A DNA stretch of 64,000 nt from Armatimonadota bacterium (lineage in GTDB: Bacteria > Sysuimicrobiota > Sysuimicrobiia > Sysuimicrobiales > Humicultoraceae), in contig JAVHMA010000020.1 of assembly GCA_031081715.1 (NCBI GenBank), forward strand, positions 1 through 64,000, written 5' to 3'. Within the stretch, counting starts at the first letter, position 1, and the number at the start of each line of letters is the position of its first letter. Position numbers and translations under genes: made by a program. The notes beneath the pieces are model-generated. The model ran no database searches, was not told the DNA's origin, and saw only the letters and a list, made by a program, of their open reading frames with translations. This document shows positions 4,492-28,958 of this stretch, in pieces.

Positions 4492-6033
4492 CTAGCGGCG
4501 CACCACCTCCGCGCGATGCAGATCCATCAGGTAGTCCGGGCGCCACGCGAACCCACGGACTCGCTGCTGGACCGCGTAGATTCCGGGCGTCTGGACGAGG
4601 AAGAGCACCGCCGCTTCTTCGCGGACGATCAGCGCGGCGCGCTGGAGGAGCTGCTGCCGACGCTGCGCGTCCATCGTCTGCCGCGACTGCTGCAGCACCT
4701 CGTCGAAATCGCGGCTGCAGAAGAAGTTGCCGACGCCGGCACAGGTGAAGAAGTTGAGCGGCAGGTCGGCGTCCATCGCCGGGAAGTACTGCCAGGCCCA
4801 GGTCCACAGCGGCCCGAGCTGTCGGGCGATGTGCCGCTGAATGTAGACGCCACCCTCGACGATCTCCAGACGTGCCCGGACGCCGACCTCGGCGAGCTGG
4901 CCGACGATGAGCTCCTCGATCTCCTTGTCCTTAGTGTATCGGCCGATCGTGCCGTGGAACGTGACCTCGAAGCCACCGGCGAAACCCGCCTCGGCCAGCA
5001 ACCGCCTCGCCCGCGCGACGTCGTACGGGTAGGGCCGCAGCACCGGGTTGTGGCCCACCGCATCCGGTCCCACGACCTGGCCGTTGAGCACACGCCCATG
5101 CCCGCGCAGGATGCTCCGGAAGATCGCCTCTTTGTCGACGGCGTAGTTCAACGCCTGTCGGACCTTGCGATCGGCGACCGGGCCAGGCACATTAGACCGC
5201 AGGTTGATGACCATGCCCTGTCCCAGGTTGACCGTCCCGAGTTGCAACCCGCGGCCGCGCAGTCGCTCGACCTGCTCCGGGGGCACGAGGACCGCGACGT
5301 CGAGCTCGCCGGTCTCCAACCCTGCCACCCGCGTCGCGTCCTCGGGGATGGCCCGGAACACGATCTCGTCGACTCTGGGCCGGCCGCGCCAGTAGCCGTC
5401 GTGCGCGCGGACGACCATGCGGTCCTGACGCAGCCACTCCACGAAGGTGAACGGCCCGGTTCCCACCGGCGCCGTCGCGAACCCGGCGGGGCCGCGCTCC
5501 TGGAAGTAGGCGGCCGGGAGGATGTCCACCACGGTCAAGCCCTGGAGCAGCGGGGCGAACGGCCCCCGCGTGATGATGCGAAACGTCGAGGGCCCGGTCA
5601 CCTCCACGCGGTCGATCGCGGAGATGCGGCCGAGCCACGGCGACCGCGTGGCCGGATTGAGCACGCGCTCGATCGAGAACTTGACGTCACCGGGCTCCAG
5701 GCTCTGGCCGTTGTGGAAGCGAACGCCCGACTGCAGCGTGAACTCCCACGTCGTCGTATCCACCAGGCGCCACGCCCTGGCGAGCACCGGCCGGAAGCCC
5801 CCTCGGCCGTCGCTCTCGATCAGCTTCTCGAAGATCGTGGCATAGGCTGGCAAGGCGTTTGCGGTGCTGTCGAGATGCGGGTCGGGCGTGTTGGGAATCG
5901 ACCCGATCCCGATGACCAGCCGCTGTGCGGTCGTCTGGGCCTGCGCCTGGGGGCCCGTCGCCGGGACCAGACCGAGCGCGGCCAGGACCGCGATTGCCGC
6001 CACCCTCGGAAAGACACGCTGCAACAGTCTCAT
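4492..6033 (-). CDS. ABC transporter substrate-binding protein, peptide family (SBP_bac_5)
   Basis: A 513-residue periplasmic solute-binding protein of the DppA/OppA family. A Sec signal peptide (about residues 1-33, ending near GPQAQAQ) lacks a lipobox cysteine, so it should be a free periplasmic protein. Family landmarks are IPNTPDPHLDSTA near the mature N-terminus, WEFTLQSGVRFHNGQSLEPGDVKFSIERV, ATAPVGTGPFTFVEW and VRQALNYAVDKEAI. Start ATG 6033 overlaps the stop of the PLP-enzyme gene by 4 bases (ATGA), implying translational coupling. Such proteins bind peptides, but many members bind other solutes. Its neighbours (peptidase-like and PLP enzymes) fit an amino-acid-containing ligand. Confidence 0.92.
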   Translation of the reverse strand: MRLLQRVFPRVAAIAVLAALGLVPATGPQAQAQTTAQRLVIGIGSIPNTPDPHLDSTANALPAYATIFEKLIESDGRGGFRPVLARAWRLVDTTTWEFTLQSGVRFHNGQSLEPGDVKFSIERVLNPATRSPWLGRISAIDRVEVTGPSTFRIITRGPFAPLLQGLTVVDILPAAYFQERGPAGFATAPVGTGPFTFVEWLRQDRMVVRAHDGYWRGRPRVDEIVFRAIPEDATRVAGLETGELDVAVLVPPEQVERLRGRGLQLGTVNLGQGMVINLRSNVPGPVADRKVRQALNYAVDKEAIFRSILRGHGRVLNGQVVGPDAVGHNPVLRPYPYDVARARRLLAEAGFAGGFEVTFHGTIGRYTKDKEIEELIVGQLAEVGVRARLEIVEGGVYIQRHIARQLGPLWTWAWQYFPAMDADLPLNFFTCAGVGNFFCSRDFDEVLQQSRQTMDAQRRQQLLQRAALIVREEAAVLFLVQTPGIYAVQQRVRGFAWRPDYLMDLHRAEVVRR

Positions 6034-18332: not shown

Positions 18333-19208
18333 TCACCTCCCCGCGCCGGCGCGCCCCGCGGCCAGCCTGAGCGCACGCGCCGTCAGCACCCGCACCAGGT
18401 CGCGCTTGTATGCTGCCGAACCCCGCACGTCGTCCACCGGATCGGCCTCCTCCGCGGCCAGCTCCCCGGCGCGGCGAACCGTGGCGTCGTCGAGCGGCTT
18501 GCCGCGCAGGAACCCCTCGGCCCGCCGGGCCTTGATCGGCACGGTGCCGGCGTTGGTCAGGCCGACGCCGGCGTGCACGCAGGTCCCGGCCGGGTCGAGC
18601 GCGACCTGCACGGCGACCGCGGCCGTGGCGAAGTCGCCTACCTTGCGCTCGAGCTTCAGATAGGCTCCGCCGCTGCGCGGCAGCGGGACAGGCACCCGGA
18701 CCTCGGTGAGCACCTCGTCGCCGCGAAGCGCGGTCGCGAACGGACCCGTAAAGAAGCTGGTGATCGCGATCCGGCGCTCGCCCCGCGGCCCCGTCGCCAC
18801 GACCTCGGCGCCGAGTGCCAGCATCGCCGCGGGATGGTCGTTCGCCGGGTCGGCATGCGCCAGGTTGCCGCACACCGTGGCCAGGTTGCGCACCAGGGGG
18901 TCGGCGACGACTCGCGAGGTGTCGTGCAGCAAGGGGTAGCGCGCCCGGATGAACTCCGAGTCCTCCAGATCGGCCTCGCGGACGAGCGCCCCGATCCGCA
19001 ACACCCCGTCCTCCTCTTTGAGATAGTCGAGGCCCGCGATGCCGTTGATGTCCACGACATGCCGGGGCGTGGCGAGTCGAAGCTTCATCAACGGGATGAG
19101 GCTCTGGCCGCCGGAGAGGATCTTGGCCTCGTCCCCGTGTTGCCCGAGCAGCTTGACCGCGTCGGCGAGCGAGGCAGGTGCGTGATATTCGAAAGCCGCG
19201 GGGATCAT
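18333..19208 (-). CDS. coxM: Aerobic CO dehydrogenase medium (FAD-binding) subunit
   Basis: A 291-residue FAD subunit of the PCMH family. FAD-binding signatures [17 protein letters not shown] and [19 protein letters not shown] are complete (the latter is the AHADPAND pyrophosphate-binding motif typical of CoxM). A C-terminal CO_deh_flav_C domain (about 180-285) ends the protein. First gene of the coxMSL-xdhC operon. Start ATG 19208 has GGGAGGG three bases upstream. The 220 bases upstream to the divergent tRNA show no convincing -35/-10 pair, so the promoter is unassigned. Confidence 0.96.
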
Positions 19209-19412
19209 GGCCCTCCCTTCCTCTTGCGCGCGAATGCGGACGAGCACGTTCCGTCGCTTGCGGCCTTCAGGTGGGACGGCAGGTGCGTTAGGGTACCACG
19301 CCGGCAGGGAGCACTCCTGCCGCGGCGCCGGGCCCACGGGCGCGCCGAGCCCCCTGAGGGGCCCGCGGCGGCTGGAGCGGGGCTGCTCGTCCACGCCCGA
19401 GACGCGATGCGG

Positions 19413-19418
19413 TATACT
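19413..19418 (+). promoter_or_regulatory. -10 hexamer for tRNA-Arg
   Basis: TATACT ends 13 bases before the tRNA 5' end, so transcription would start a few bases ahead of the mature tRNA. No good -35 is visible 16-18 bases upstream. Confidence 0.4.
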
Positions 19419-19431
19419 GAGGAGGATCGTC

Positions 19432-19509
19432 GGGCCCGTAGCTCAATCGGACAGAGCGCCAACCTTCTAAGTTGTGCGGTTGGGGGTTCGACTCCCCCCG
19501 GGCCCGCCA
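19432..19509 (+). tRNA. tRNA-Arg (anticodon TCT)
   Basis: Full cloverleaf: acceptor GGGCCCG pairing with CGGGCCC, D stem GCTC/GAGC, anticodon loop CTTCTAA with TCT at 34-36 (reads AGA), and T arm GGGGG-TTCGACT-CCCCC. G discriminator and an encoded CCA (19507-19509). The first anticodon-stem pair (C27-T43) is mismatched. A Kef-type antiporter ATG lies only 20 bases beyond the CCA. Confidence 0.95.
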
Positions 19510-19529
19510 GCCTCGAATCACAGGTTCCC

Positions 19530-21248
19530 ATGGACGAAACCCGGTTCTTCGTCGATCTCGGCCTGGTCCTCCTCGGCGCCCTGCTCGGCGGGGCGCTGGC
19601 CCAACTGCTCCGCCAGCCGCTGATCGTCGGATACATCCTGGGCGGTATCCTGGTCGGGCCGTTCACGCCCGGCCCGACGATCTCCGACCCGCACTCGTTC
19701 CAGCTCTTTGCCGAGATCGGCGTCGTGCTGCTCATGTTCACCATCGGCGTGGAGTTCTCGATCACCGAGCTGCTGCGCGCCGGAAAGGTGGCCCTCTACG
19801 GTGCGCCCGCCGGAATCGTGCTCATCGTCTTGCTCACGCTGCCGGTGGGCGGGCTGCTCGGATGGCCGACCGCGCAGTCGCTCGTGGTCGGCGCCGCGGT
19901 GAGCGTCGCCAGCACGATGGTCCTGTTGAAGTTCCTGCTCGAGCGCCGCGAGCTCCACTCGCCCCACGGCCGGGCGATCGTCGGCATCACCCTCATGGAG
20001 GACCTCGCGGTCGTGGCGCTGACGATCCTGGTCCCGGTGCTGGCGACGGGCGCCGAGGACCGCCTCCGGCTCTTCGGCCGCGGGCTCCTGGAAGCGGCGC
20101 TGGTCCTGGCACCGCTGCTCTGGCTGGCGCGCCGCCTGATGCCGCGGCTGCTCTCGCGTGTGGCACGGACGCGCAACATGGAGCTGTTTCTGCTGGTGGC
20201 GATCTCGGTCGCGATCGGCACGGCGGCGCTCACCGCGAGCCTCGGGCTGTCCGTCGCCCTGGGGGCGTTTTTGGCCGGACTCGTCGTCAGCGAGTCGGAG
20301 TTCGCCTACGAGGCGCTCTCGCGGGTCCTGCCCATGCGAGACCTGTTCGTGGCGTTGTTCTTCGTCTCCGTCGGCACGCTCGTGCGCCCCGCGAGCCTGC
20401 TCGCCGAGTGGCCGACCGTCCTCGCGCTCGTGTTCGTGGTGATCGTGGTCAAGTTCGCCGTCTGGACCACGGTGGTACGCGCGGCGGGCTACGCGGCCGG
20501 CACCGCCGCGATGGCCGGGTTGGGGCTGACCCAGATCGGCGAGTTCTCGTACGTGCTGGCGGGCGTCGGCCGGCTCCACGGCCTATTGAGCCCGGCGGTC
20601 TACGACGCGATCCTGGCGACGTCACTGGTCACGATTCTGGCGAACGCGCTTCTCTTCAGGCGCACGCCGGCGTGGCTGCAGCGCCTGCTGGCCGGGCGCG
20701 TCGGCCCGCCGGAGCCGGAGCCCGCGGGCGTCCCGGCCGACGGCCGCGCGCTCCTCTGCGGCTTTGGGCGGGTCGGCCGGCAGGTGGCCGACGCCCTGGA
20801 CGCGTTCGGCGCGCCTTACACGGTGATCGACCTCGACCCCGATGGCACGACCGCCGCGAAGATCCGCGGTGTACCGGCGGTCTTCGGCGACGCGGGGAGC
20901 GAGCTGATCCTGCGCCGGGCCGGCGCCGAACGCGCGCGCCTGGCCGTGGTCGCGATTCCCGACGACGAGGCGGCCTACCGGTGCGTCTCGGCGCTACGGC
21001 GGATGCGCGAGGATCTGCCCATCATCGTCCGGGTGACCCATGAGGCCGCGCGCTCCGACCTTCTGGCCGCTGGCGCGACCGAGGTCATCCTGCCGGAGGT
21101 CGAGGCGGCGCTCACGATCGTCCGGCACAGCCTTGACCGGCTTGAGGTGGACCACAGCGAGGGACGGCGCTACCTGGAGGAGGTCCGCCGCCACTGGTCG
21201 GCGGACCTGAGCGCCGCGCAGGGCGCGGAGCGCCCCGCCGGCGGCTAA
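19530..21248 (+). CDS. Kef-type monovalent cation:proton antiporter (CPA2) with TrkA_N domain
   Basis: A 572-residue membrane protein: about 12 helices of the Na+/H+ exchanger fold (residues 1-385; IVGYILGGILVGPFTPGP, ASTMVLLKFLLERRELHSP, ITLMEDLAVVALTIL) followed by a cytoplasmic RCK/TrkA_N domain. The NAD(H)-type Rossmann motif is LLCGFGRVGRQVADAL with VIDLDPD. This matches KefB/C-like or CPA2 K+ efflux systems that exchange K+ or Na+ for H+ under nucleotide control. It lacks a clear TrkA_C ending. The start ATG is 20 bases after the tRNA-Arg CCA and has no recognisable ribosome-binding site or separate promoter. Confidence 0.9.
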   Translation: MDETRFFVDLGLVLLGALLGGALAQLLRQPLIVGYILGGILVGPFTPGPTISDPHSFQLFAEIGVVLLMFTIGVEFSITELLRAGKVALYGAPAGIVLIVLLTLPVGGLLGWPTAQSLVVGAAVSVASTMVLLKFLLERRELHSPHGRAIVGITLMEDLAVVALTILVPVLATGAEDRLRLFGRGLLEAALVLAPLLWLARRLMPRLLSRVARTRNMELFLLVAISVAIGTAALTASLGLSVALGAFLAGLVVSESEFAYEALSRVLPMRDLFVALFFVSVGTLVRPASLLAEWPTVLALVFVVIVVKFAVWTTVVRAAGYAAGTAAMAGLGLTQIGEFSYVLAGVGRLHGLLSPAVYDAILATSLVTILANALLFRRTPAWLQRLLAGRVGPPEPEPAGVPADGRALLCGFGRVGRQVADALDAFGAPYTVIDLDPDGTTAAKIRGVPAVFGDAGSELILRRAGAERARLAVVAIPDDEAAYRCVSALRRMREDLPIIVRVTHEAARSDLLAAGATEVILPEVEAALTIVRHSLDRLEVDHSEGRRYLEEVRRHWSADLSAAQGAERPAGG

Positions 21249-26571: not shown

Positions 26572-27444
26572 ATGAAACGACGTGACCGGCGCCTGATGTT
26601 CCTGACGGCGCGGCTGCCGCTGGCGGCGGCGCTGCTGCTGACGGCCCTGCTCCCGCGGGCGGTGCTTCCGCTGCTGGCCGCGCCGCCGGGGCCCACGCTC
26701 ATCGTCCCCGGACAGTCGCTGGGGACGCTGCGCCTCGGCACCGGCGTCGGCGCGCTCTACCAGACGCCCGGGTTCGGGCAGCCGGATCGCACCCATGCAG
26801 CCGGATCCATCACCTATCTGACCTACGGCCGCCAGGGCGTCACCGTGGCGGTGCGCGAGAGCAGCGTGGTCCTCATCCTGACGACCAGCGAGCGCTTCCG
26901 CACCGACAAGGGCCTTGCCGTGGGGCAGCCGGCGGCGGCGGCCTCGGCCTACGGCCCGGCATCACGGGGCGGGGACGCGAGCATCCTGTGGTTCGACGAC
27001 GCGGGCCTGGTGGTGATCACCGGCGGCGGCACCATCGTGCGGATCGGGGTCTACGACCCCAGCCAGTTCGTGCGCGCCATTCTCGCGGAGGAGCGCCCCG
27101 CGCGCGACGTTTTCCTGACGGCGCGCGCCCCGAGGCTCGCGGAGGCGACAACGGCCGCCGGCGGCGCGTCCGCGCGCACCGCCACGGTCGTGGTCACCCT
27201 CAAGAACGCGAGCCGCGCCGGCAAGGTCCTCAACCCGAACTACCTGGTGCTCGTGGACCGCGAAGGACAACGCTACCGCTACGACCGCTCGACGTTCGCG
27301 CAGGGCGACGCGTGCCGCTCGACCCTCATGGTGCGGCCCGGCGAGGCGAAGTCCTGCTCGGTCGTCTTCATCCTGCCGACGGGCCGGACGCCGCGGTCGA
27401 TCGTCTTCGACGACGGCGCGAGCGCGGACGAGCACTACTTCTGA
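26572..27444 (+). CDS. Secreted protein with C-terminal DUF4352-like domain
   Basis: A 290-residue exported protein: signal peptide or anchor at about 10-37 (LPLAAALLLTALLPRAVLPLLAA), a central beta-rich region (about 45-165), and a C-terminal Ig-like domain (about 200-290). The last resembles DUF4352/telokin-like folds: ATVVVTLKNASRAGKV, YLVLVDREGQRYRYD, CSVVFILPTG. Two cysteines in that domain could form a disulfide. Function is unknown. It is divergent from the MoxR operon and its last 10 bases overlap the convergent DksA/TraR-like gene. Confidence 0.7.
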   Translation: MKRRDRRLMFLTARLPLAAALLLTALLPRAVLPLLAAPPGPTLIVPGQSLGTLRLGTGVGALYQTPGFGQPDRTHAAGSITYLTYGRQGVTVAVRESSVVLILTTSERFRTDKGLAVGQPAAAASAYGPASRGGDASILWFDDAGLVVITGGGTIVRIGVYDPSQFVRAILAEERPARDVFLTARAPRLAEATTAAGGASARTATVVVTLKNASRAGKVLNPNYLVLVDREGQRYRYDRSTFAQGDACRSTLMVRPGEAKSCSVVFILPTGRTPRSIVFDDGASADEHYF

Positions 27445-27932
27445 CCGTCCTCGTCGTCGTCCGCGCCCCAGGTCGTCTTGAGCACGCGCCACTCGCGAAA
27501 GGGAACGTGGCGGTCGAGCCCGCCGCCCCGCTCCTGGGCAGCCTTGCAGGCCACGCAGAGGGTCGCGTAGGGGATCGCCCGTAGCCGGTGCGGGTTGATG
27601 GGGTACCCGCAGCGCACGCAGGTCCCGTAGGTCCCGGTGCGCAACCGTCGCAGCGCCTGGTCGATCTCCTCCATGATGGTCCGGAGGCTCGTCTCGACGG
27701 CTGAGTCGCGGTCGCGCTCGATCGTCTCAGCCGCGGCGTCGGCGAGCGCGTCGTCGTCACCGCCGCCCGGCGCGGGCGCGTCGCCCGCGCGCGCGGCCCG
27801 GACGGCGAGCACGGCGATCTCACCGGCCAGGCGGCGCCGCTCGTCGAGGAGCAGCCGGCGGAACTCCTGGCGGTCCAAGTGCCACGCCCGCCGGCGCGGC
27901 CCGGCTGGCCGGCGTCTCCCCGGTGTGGACAT
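27435..27932 (-). CDS. DksA/TraR family C4 zinc-finger protein
   Basis: A 165-residue protein with an N-terminal coiled-coil region (HLDRQEFRRLLLDERRRLAG, then a helix of about 40 residues) and a C4 zinc finger, CVRCGYPINPHRLRAIPYAT then LCVAC. This is the DksA/TraR/YteA layout; such proteins bind in the RNA polymerase secondary channel or are sporulation/stress-linked relatives. The conserved DxxDxA tip of DksA is not visible, so a polymerase role is unproven. ATG 27932 is taken as start; the frame is open to 28061. Confidence 0.8.
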   Translation of the reverse strand: MSTPGRRRPAGPRRRAWHLDRQEFRRLLLDERRRLAGEIAVLAVRAARAGDAPAPGGGDDDALADAAAETIERDRDSAVETSLRTIMEEIDQALRRLRTGTYGTCVRCGYPINPHRLRAIPYATLCVACKAAQERGGGLDRHVPFREWRVLKTTWGADDDEDGQK

Positions 27933-28090
27933 CCGCACGGCCCCACCCGCCGCGACCCGTCGCACCCGCTCCACCGTCGGCCACCTCCGCTCCGGGCCCG
28001 GTGCTGCCAGGCGCCTGCGGGCCCGGTCATGTCGTATCACGGGGGGAACGGGACCGCCCATCGGTTCGACGACCGATGTTGACCAAGACA

Positions 28091-28157: not shown

Positions 28158-28760
28158 CTACCTGGAAAACGCCGCAGACAGCGGGCACCCCTGGTTGTTC
28201 GCCGTATCGAGGTTCGTCGCGAGCGTCAAAATCGTCTCGCGGGAGTTGCTCGCCAGGGCCGTGTTCACCGCCCCGACGATCTGCGAGGTCGAGTACGCGT
28301 AGGACACGCCCGGGTGCGCGGCGTTCAACAGCGCGGCCACGGCGGCCCGGAGCATGATGCGGGCCGCGCCGTCAAGACCGGCGCCGCCGCCGTACCCGAG
28401 CGCCTGCAGGAACGTCGCGCTCCCGAAGCTCGAGAAGCCGGCCGGGAAGGTGAAGACCGAGCCGAGCGTTGCGCCGGGCGCGTAGCCGGTCGGCCCCCAG
28501 GCCTGCGTGTTGTTCTTCCAGAAGCCGGGTGTGCAACCCCCGAACCGGGCGGTGGGCGTCGGTGTCGGCGGCTTGGGTGTGGGCGTCGGGTCGGACGGCT
28601 TGGGTGTCGGGGTGGCGCCGTCCTTGGGCGTTGCAGTCGGCGCCGGGTCCGCGGCCAGGCCCAGCCTGGTGTCGTCGCCGAACGGCCATCCCGTCGCCAC
28701 GAGCAAGAACGTCACGGCAAGGACGATGGCTGCGGCCTTCCACATACTCTGCTTGTCCAT
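28158..28760 (-). CDS. Secreted/anchored protein with Thr-Pro linker and CTPGFWKN domain
   Basis: A 200-residue exported protein. N-terminal signal/anchor (WKAAAIVLAVTFLLVATG) leads to a low-complexity TPTPKP-type linker (about 38-70), then a compact C-terminal domain. That domain opens with GCTPGFWKNN and contains LQALGYGGGAGLDG and MLRAAVAALLNAAHP, closing with a lone cysteine. Domains opening CTPG(F/Y)WKN occur in surface proteins of several phyla; no function is established to my knowledge. A second in-frame start lies at 28904 behind GGAGG, adding 48 Arg-rich residues. An intrinsic terminator lies between the two starts, so expression looks attenuated. Confidence 0.75.
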   Translation of the reverse strand: MDKQSMWKAAAIVLAVTFLLVATGWPFGDDTRLGLAADPAPTATPKDGATPTPKPSDPTPTPKPPTPTPTARFGGCTPGFWKNNTQAWGPTGYAPGATLGSVFTFPAGFSSFGSATFLQALGYGGGAGLDGAARIMLRAAVAALLNAAHPGVSYAYSTSQIVGAVNTALASNSRETILTLATNLDTANNQGCPLSAAFSR

Positions 28761-28811
28761 AGACTGGCCCCCCTTGCGCGACGGAGCACGCTGGCGCGGC
28801 CCGCCGGCGCC

Positions 28812-28851
28812 GCAGAAAACAGAAAACCCGACCAGACGATCTGGCCGGGTT
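28812..28851 (-). promoter_or_regulatory. Intrinsic terminator in the leader of the CTPGFWKN gene (attenuator)
   Basis: On the minus strand a 12-bp stem (28840-28851 with 28825-28836, one G-U pair, 3-base loop) runs directly into a tract containing TTTTCTGTTTTCTG. This is a textbook intrinsic terminator placed 64 bases upstream of ATG 28760 and downstream of the promoter-like region near 28930-28958. A second perfect 8-bp stem (28865-28872 with 28895-28902) precedes it, and its arms have an alternative partner. No known riboswitch consensus fits. Confidence 0.6.
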
Positions 28852-28928
28852 CGCCACTGGCTCCGCGCAGGCCAGGCGACCAGCGACGAGCGACGCCTGC
28901 GCATCATTGCCTCCAGAACTTGCATGCT

Positions 28929-28958
28929 ATTGTGGGCGTCATTGGCGGCCCCCGTCAA
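28929..28958 (-). promoter_or_regulatory. Promoter for the attenuated leader
   Basis: Minus-strand TTGACG (28953-28958), 18-base spacer, CACAAT (28929-28934). Transcription would begin near 28922, giving a leader of about 160 bases that includes the two hairpins. Confidence 0.45.

Follow-up and report, generated by a model that had tools for sequence, protein, structure and literature searches.

What does an intrinsic terminator do when it stands between two in-frame starts of a single gene? The question is raised by a leader on the minus strand of a 64,000-nucleotide stretch of DNA (the window), in which an earlier note listed a promoter, a GGAGG followed by an ATG, a perfect 8-bp stem and a strong terminator ahead of a second ATG, and proposed either translation-coupled attenuation or an unidentified riboswitch. 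These landmarks are present. The promoter, TTGACG-18-CACAAT, is read at 28958-28929 (minus), and a pattern written post hoc from the site itself matches nowhere else in the 64 kb, with 0.02 expected. GGAGG precedes ATG 28907/28904 (minus), which opens the frame MRRRRSSL; ATG 28760 lies 144 nt from 28904 in the same frame, with no stop between. The stem (GCGCAGGC/GCCUGCGC, 28902-28895 with 28872-28865, minus) is perfect, and the terminator (28852-28824, minus; approximately -20 kcal/mol) has a 13-pair stem, a 3-nt loop and a T-rich tract.

A terminator-like site alone and an open frame alone say little. By chance, 0.9 ± 1.2 terminator-like sites are expected in the region, so about one, and the open frame does not depend on ATG 28904, since it extends upstream to TTG 29099. 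Far beyond chance are the covariance-model match of the whole leader and an overlap of terminator and aptamer that recurs in 13 of 13 loci.

Table 1. Features of the leader and its gene, in window coordinates; aptamer positions follow the numbering of PDB 3Q3Z.
Feature	Positions	Strand	Basis
-35 hexamer TTGACG	28953..28958	-	sequence
-10 hexamer CACAAT	28929..28934	-	
Class-II c-di-GMP riboswitch aptamer (assigned)	28834..28923	-	RF03170 65.0 bits; RF01786 50.5 bits
P1 5' strand UCUGG, inner 5 pairs with 28844-28840	28913..28917	-	
"Upstream ATG", part of the aptamer's conserved GAUGAU, not a conserved start	28902..28904	-	
P2 5' strand GCGCAGGC, pairs with 28872-28865	28895..28902	-	
Pseudoknot strand UCGCC, pairs with GGCGA 28855-28851	28875..28879	-	
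Pseudoknot strand GGCGA	28851..28855	-	
Ligand-contact strand A69 C70 C71 C72 G73	28846..28850	-	contact list PMC7288161
Terminator 5' arm GAACCCGGCCAGA, aptamer positions 67-73 and P1 3' strand	28840..28852	-	
Terminator 3' arm UCUGGUCGGGUUU	28824..28836	-	
U-rich tract UCUGUUUU, 3' of the hairpin	28816..28823	-	
Regulated gene, 200-aa protein: signal/anchor segment, TPTPKP linker, CTPGFWKN domain	28158..28760	-	

Identity and architecture of the leader

The leader is assigned to a known kind of RNA, the class-II c-di-GMP riboswitches (Rfam RF03170/RF01786). The Rfam covariance-model search that the earlier note had proposed places RF03170 (c-di-GMP-II-GCG) at 28834-28923 (minus) with 65.0 bits, above the curated cut-off of 47.9 (E 1.2e-9 over 64 kb and 4227 families). 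The match is full length, covering model positions 1-85, and is the only one above the cut-off in the 2.98-Mb genome, where scores elsewhere reach at most 26.2 bits. RF01786, the canonical c-di-GMP-II family, matches the same place at 50.5 bits, just below its cut-off of 53.5, and other Rfam families yield only noise on the window at E values up to 10. The suggestion of a riboswitch thus holds, but not the word "unidentified", since Rfam assigns the leader to class II. The remark that GEMM does not fit was right: GEMM is class I (RF01051), which was rejected for the leader because the Rfam scan finds no covariance-model match there, as against 11 matches elsewhere in the genome.

A second covariance model was built from the aptamers of eight relatives, with the window left out because the MAFFT alignment (A1) misplaced the P2 insertion of the window. 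This model finds the window leader at 69.5 bits, and its second-best match in the window scores 25.5 bits. The latter (20843-20922, plus strand) is dismissed as chance; it has no pseudoknot and sits within a long coding frame (18573-21248).

Secondary structure was examined across several phyla, in 97 matches to the model; the 21-base scan pattern matches often by chance, where there is no aptamer, and only its hits with a model match were used. Standard pairs occupy 84.6% of pair cells, a share that none of 500 shuffles reached (60.7% in shuffles), and 22 of the 27 pairs vary at both partners. The inner five P1 pairs, the adjoining short helix and P2, the last being the 8-bp stem of the earlier note, are paired in 92-94% of cells, figures that lean towards the model because the alignment was fitted to its structure. 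The outer six P1 pairs are paired in 52%, without alignment support, and are poor in the window too. Free of that bias is the loop pseudoknot UCGCC/GGCGA, which forms in 98.8% of cells though absent from the model and shows compensating swaps at two loci (L015 and L135; G-C and A-U for U-A). By covariation and by pairing in the 97 sequences, the leader has the P1, the P2 and the loop pseudoknot of the class-II clan.

The supposed upstream start falls inside this architecture: what reads as "GGAGG ... ATG" is the conserved sequence that separates P1 from P2 and closes with GAUGAU. Under translation-coupled attenuation, ribosomes starting at ATG 28904 would cross the terminator hairpin and make an N-terminally extended protein, a reading that draws on the GGAGG before this ATG and on the frame left open to 28760. 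However, this ATG and the bases around it belong to the aptamer consensus, the frame is open far upstream as well (to 29099), and an extension would bury the hydrophobic signal segment, whose beginning lies near 28760. Among relatives with an ATG at this place the frame stops after four or five codons in nine of ten, and in the tenth (L016) the ATG and the gene are in different frames; two further loci (L012 and L014) have no ATG at that position. A frame closed so early in 9/10 relatives argues that ATG 28904 is not a conserved coding start, and relatives with the ATG have no conserved upstream reading frame of the kind expected of a leader peptide. With no conserved frame to sustain it, translation-coupled attenuation from 28904 was rejected as highly improbable.

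Binding site and position 70

In PDB 3Q3Z, the ligand contacts are A13, A14, U37, G39, U60, A61, C68, A69, A70, C71, C72, G73 and A74 (PMC7288161). In a base-by-base comparison at nine of these, the window keeps U37, G39, A61, A69, C71, C72 and G73; A70 is replaced by C, and C68 by A with a compensating U40. The triad at positions 69-70-73 is A-C-G in the window, A-A-G in the canonical site and G-C-G in the RF03170 consensus, and from that consensus we read the Rfam suffix "GCG" as these three bases. The window therefore has A69-C70-G73 in place of the G69-C70-G73 that names the variant. With RF03170, its best-scoring family, the window shares P1, P2, the pseudoknot and C70, but the model consensus has G69 where the window has A69. 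With canonical class II (RF01786; 3Q3Z) it shares the architecture and the retained contacts, but differs in C70 and in a pseudoknot of UCGCC/GGCGA rather than GCAC/GUGC. A related aptamer of the same family, L015, has the canonical site.

Since position 70 is C and not the canonical A, affinity for c-di-GMP is not guaranteed. The A-C-G aptamers might be a specificity group of their own, sensing a different (cyclic) dinucleotide or signal and again acting through antitermination. Rfam does put the window aptamer in a variant family apart from the canonical class, and position 70, one of the listed contacts with the ligand (PMC7288161), is C, within an A-C-G triad, in 24 of the 97 matches; 69 matches are A-A-G, although the scan pattern forced A69 and the tally is uninformative on how frequent G69 is. 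Both types also occur in one genome (L013 with L019 in G038; L077 with L043 in JA1.bin20), and tandem A-A-G/A-C-G and A-A-G/G-C-G pairs precede single genes (L025, L116). Yet, between species, orthologous genes stand behind aptamers that differ in having A70 or C70 (L077/L078, 76% identical; L077/L110, 65%; L024/L043, 51%; the subtilase family), aptamers with C70 (L012) and U70 (L014) precede the same prepilin pair, and at least three of the genome's GGDEF domains have ordinary FKxxND motifs. Orthologous genes behind either A70 or C70 aptamers most likely answer to the same ligand. A separate specificity is accordingly judged unlikely, and the simplest reading is a single ligand, most likely c-di-GMP, with a position 70 that would tolerate the change. 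Were the A-C-G group real, the genome would read two signals through its class-I and class-II RNAs.

Tandem class-II aptamers before single genes lie at L025:2676-2985 (an Acidimicrobiaceae MAG) and at L116:2504-2810 and 5667-5975. Their mixture of A-A-G with A-C-G or G-C-G sites could serve to steepen the response or to gate a gene by two signals. In one relative (G029, L016:1501-1593), a divergent aptamer whose site is G-A-G, with a strong terminator, precedes a beta-propeller-like secreted protein.

Terminator overlap and the predicted switch

The 5' arm of the terminator is also the ligand-binding and P1 strand of the aptamer, so that aptamer and terminator exclude each other. In the window's phylum the arm lies within the aptamer at all 13 loci, where shuffling of the downstream bases leads one to expect 0.33. 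At L019, position 70 is A and the terminator 3' arm carries the matching U, giving A-U instead of C-G. A terminator that overlaps the aptamer and is mutually exclusive with it is what marks a transcriptional riboswitch, and the overlap predicts an ON switch. The terminator fold, with P2 kept, is estimated at -39.5 kcal/mol and the aptamer fold, without its pseudoknot, at -22.0 kcal/mol; on these values the ligand-free default should be termination. At the level of sequence, the aptamer, its pseudoknot, the terminator and their mutual exclusivity are evident, and they are kept across relatives.

The leader very probably belongs to the class-II c-di-GMP riboswitches and switches the CTPGFWKN gene on at the level of transcription. 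In the proposed mechanism, for which we infer the ligand, the direction and the start site, RNA polymerase would start near 28922, a +1 suggested by the placement of the -10 hexamer and falling where the aptamer begins. Without ligand, the GAACCCGGCCAGA strand (28852-28840) would leave the aptamer and pair with 28836-28824, forming the terminator and keeping the gene off. With c-di-GMP bound, the same strand would stay engaged in the pocket, in the pseudoknot and in P1, which would block the terminator, and the secreted CTPGFWKN protein would be made from ATG 28760. Class-II switches in C. difficile are transcriptional ON switches whose targets include pili (a type IV pilin operon) and adhesins (PMC11477304). 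The window leader resembles them in its class-II aptamer, its predicted transcriptional ON logic and a surface-structure target, but belongs to another phylum and precedes another target protein, and its direction is read from anatomy only.

The regulated 200-aa protein is hydrophobic at its N-terminus; Pfam and NCBIfam give no match for it, and the PDB no relative of note. Its gene has a homologue in only one relative, G004 (50% identity over 119 aa), where the leader is absent; the pairing of leader and gene is not conserved there. The earlier note held that a leader unconserved in relatives with the same gene would speak against its reading. This is literally the case for the gene itself, but the leader is strongly conserved before other genes. 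Of 86 proteins encoded behind other class-II aptamers, 4 carry the motif [TS]PG[YF]W[KR]; among 1939 further frames at the same loci, 2 do. Its bearers (L055, L057, L093 and L106, from Chloroflexi and similar MAGs, and the window gene) are secreted proteins of different phyla. The next gene downstream of the regulated gene (27435-28061, minus) encodes a DksA/TraR-type zinc-finger protein (PF01258).

The leader might instead be a decayed aptamer, an inherited structure that has lost ligand sensing and whose terminator merely attenuates. The broken outer P1 of the window and the leaderless homologue in G004 would fit such decay, but the retained ligand contacts and the whole core are intact, as are P2, the pseudoknot, the inner P1 pairs, the promoter and the terminator, and there is scarcely any likelihood that sensing has been lost.

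The c-di-GMP setting and its meaning

The genome encodes 8 GGDEF domains, 10 HD-GYP domains and 1 PilZ domain, and no EAL domain was found in it. Eleven class-I c-di-GMP riboswitches score above the cut-off in its 3 Mb and precede, among others, a prepilin, HD-GYP proteins, a sigma factor, a CAP-like secreted protein and a TPTPT-rich secreted protein, names that were read directly from the sequences. Class-I sites lie on contigs C37, C34, C41, C44, C48, C49, C24, C30 and C25 of the genome (G000; L151-L158). RF03170 matches occur in 9 of 61 genomes searched, all in the window's small phylum, represented here by 43 genomes. Behind related aptamers stand genes for prepilins, a PilB/MshEN ATPase, subtilases, camelysin-like proteins and other secreted proteins. 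Camelysin-like (Peptidase_M73) proteins, or proteins with a similar N-terminus, follow class-II aptamers at seven loci, mostly actinobacterial (L024, L043, L058, L077, L078, L105 and L110), which suggests c-di-GMP control of matrix-fibre-like proteins.

The riboswitch assignment fully explains the leader and removes a false upstream start from the annotation. The RNA belongs to a known type, the class-II c-di-GMP riboswitches; its phylum is little studied, its binding-site triad is intermediate, and it is ordinary in kind. The interchange of A70 and C70 before orthologous genes raises the question of whether C70 is relevant to ligand choice. Class-II c-di-GMP switches are placed in a small candidate phylum, where their targets fit a c-di-GMP surface programme.
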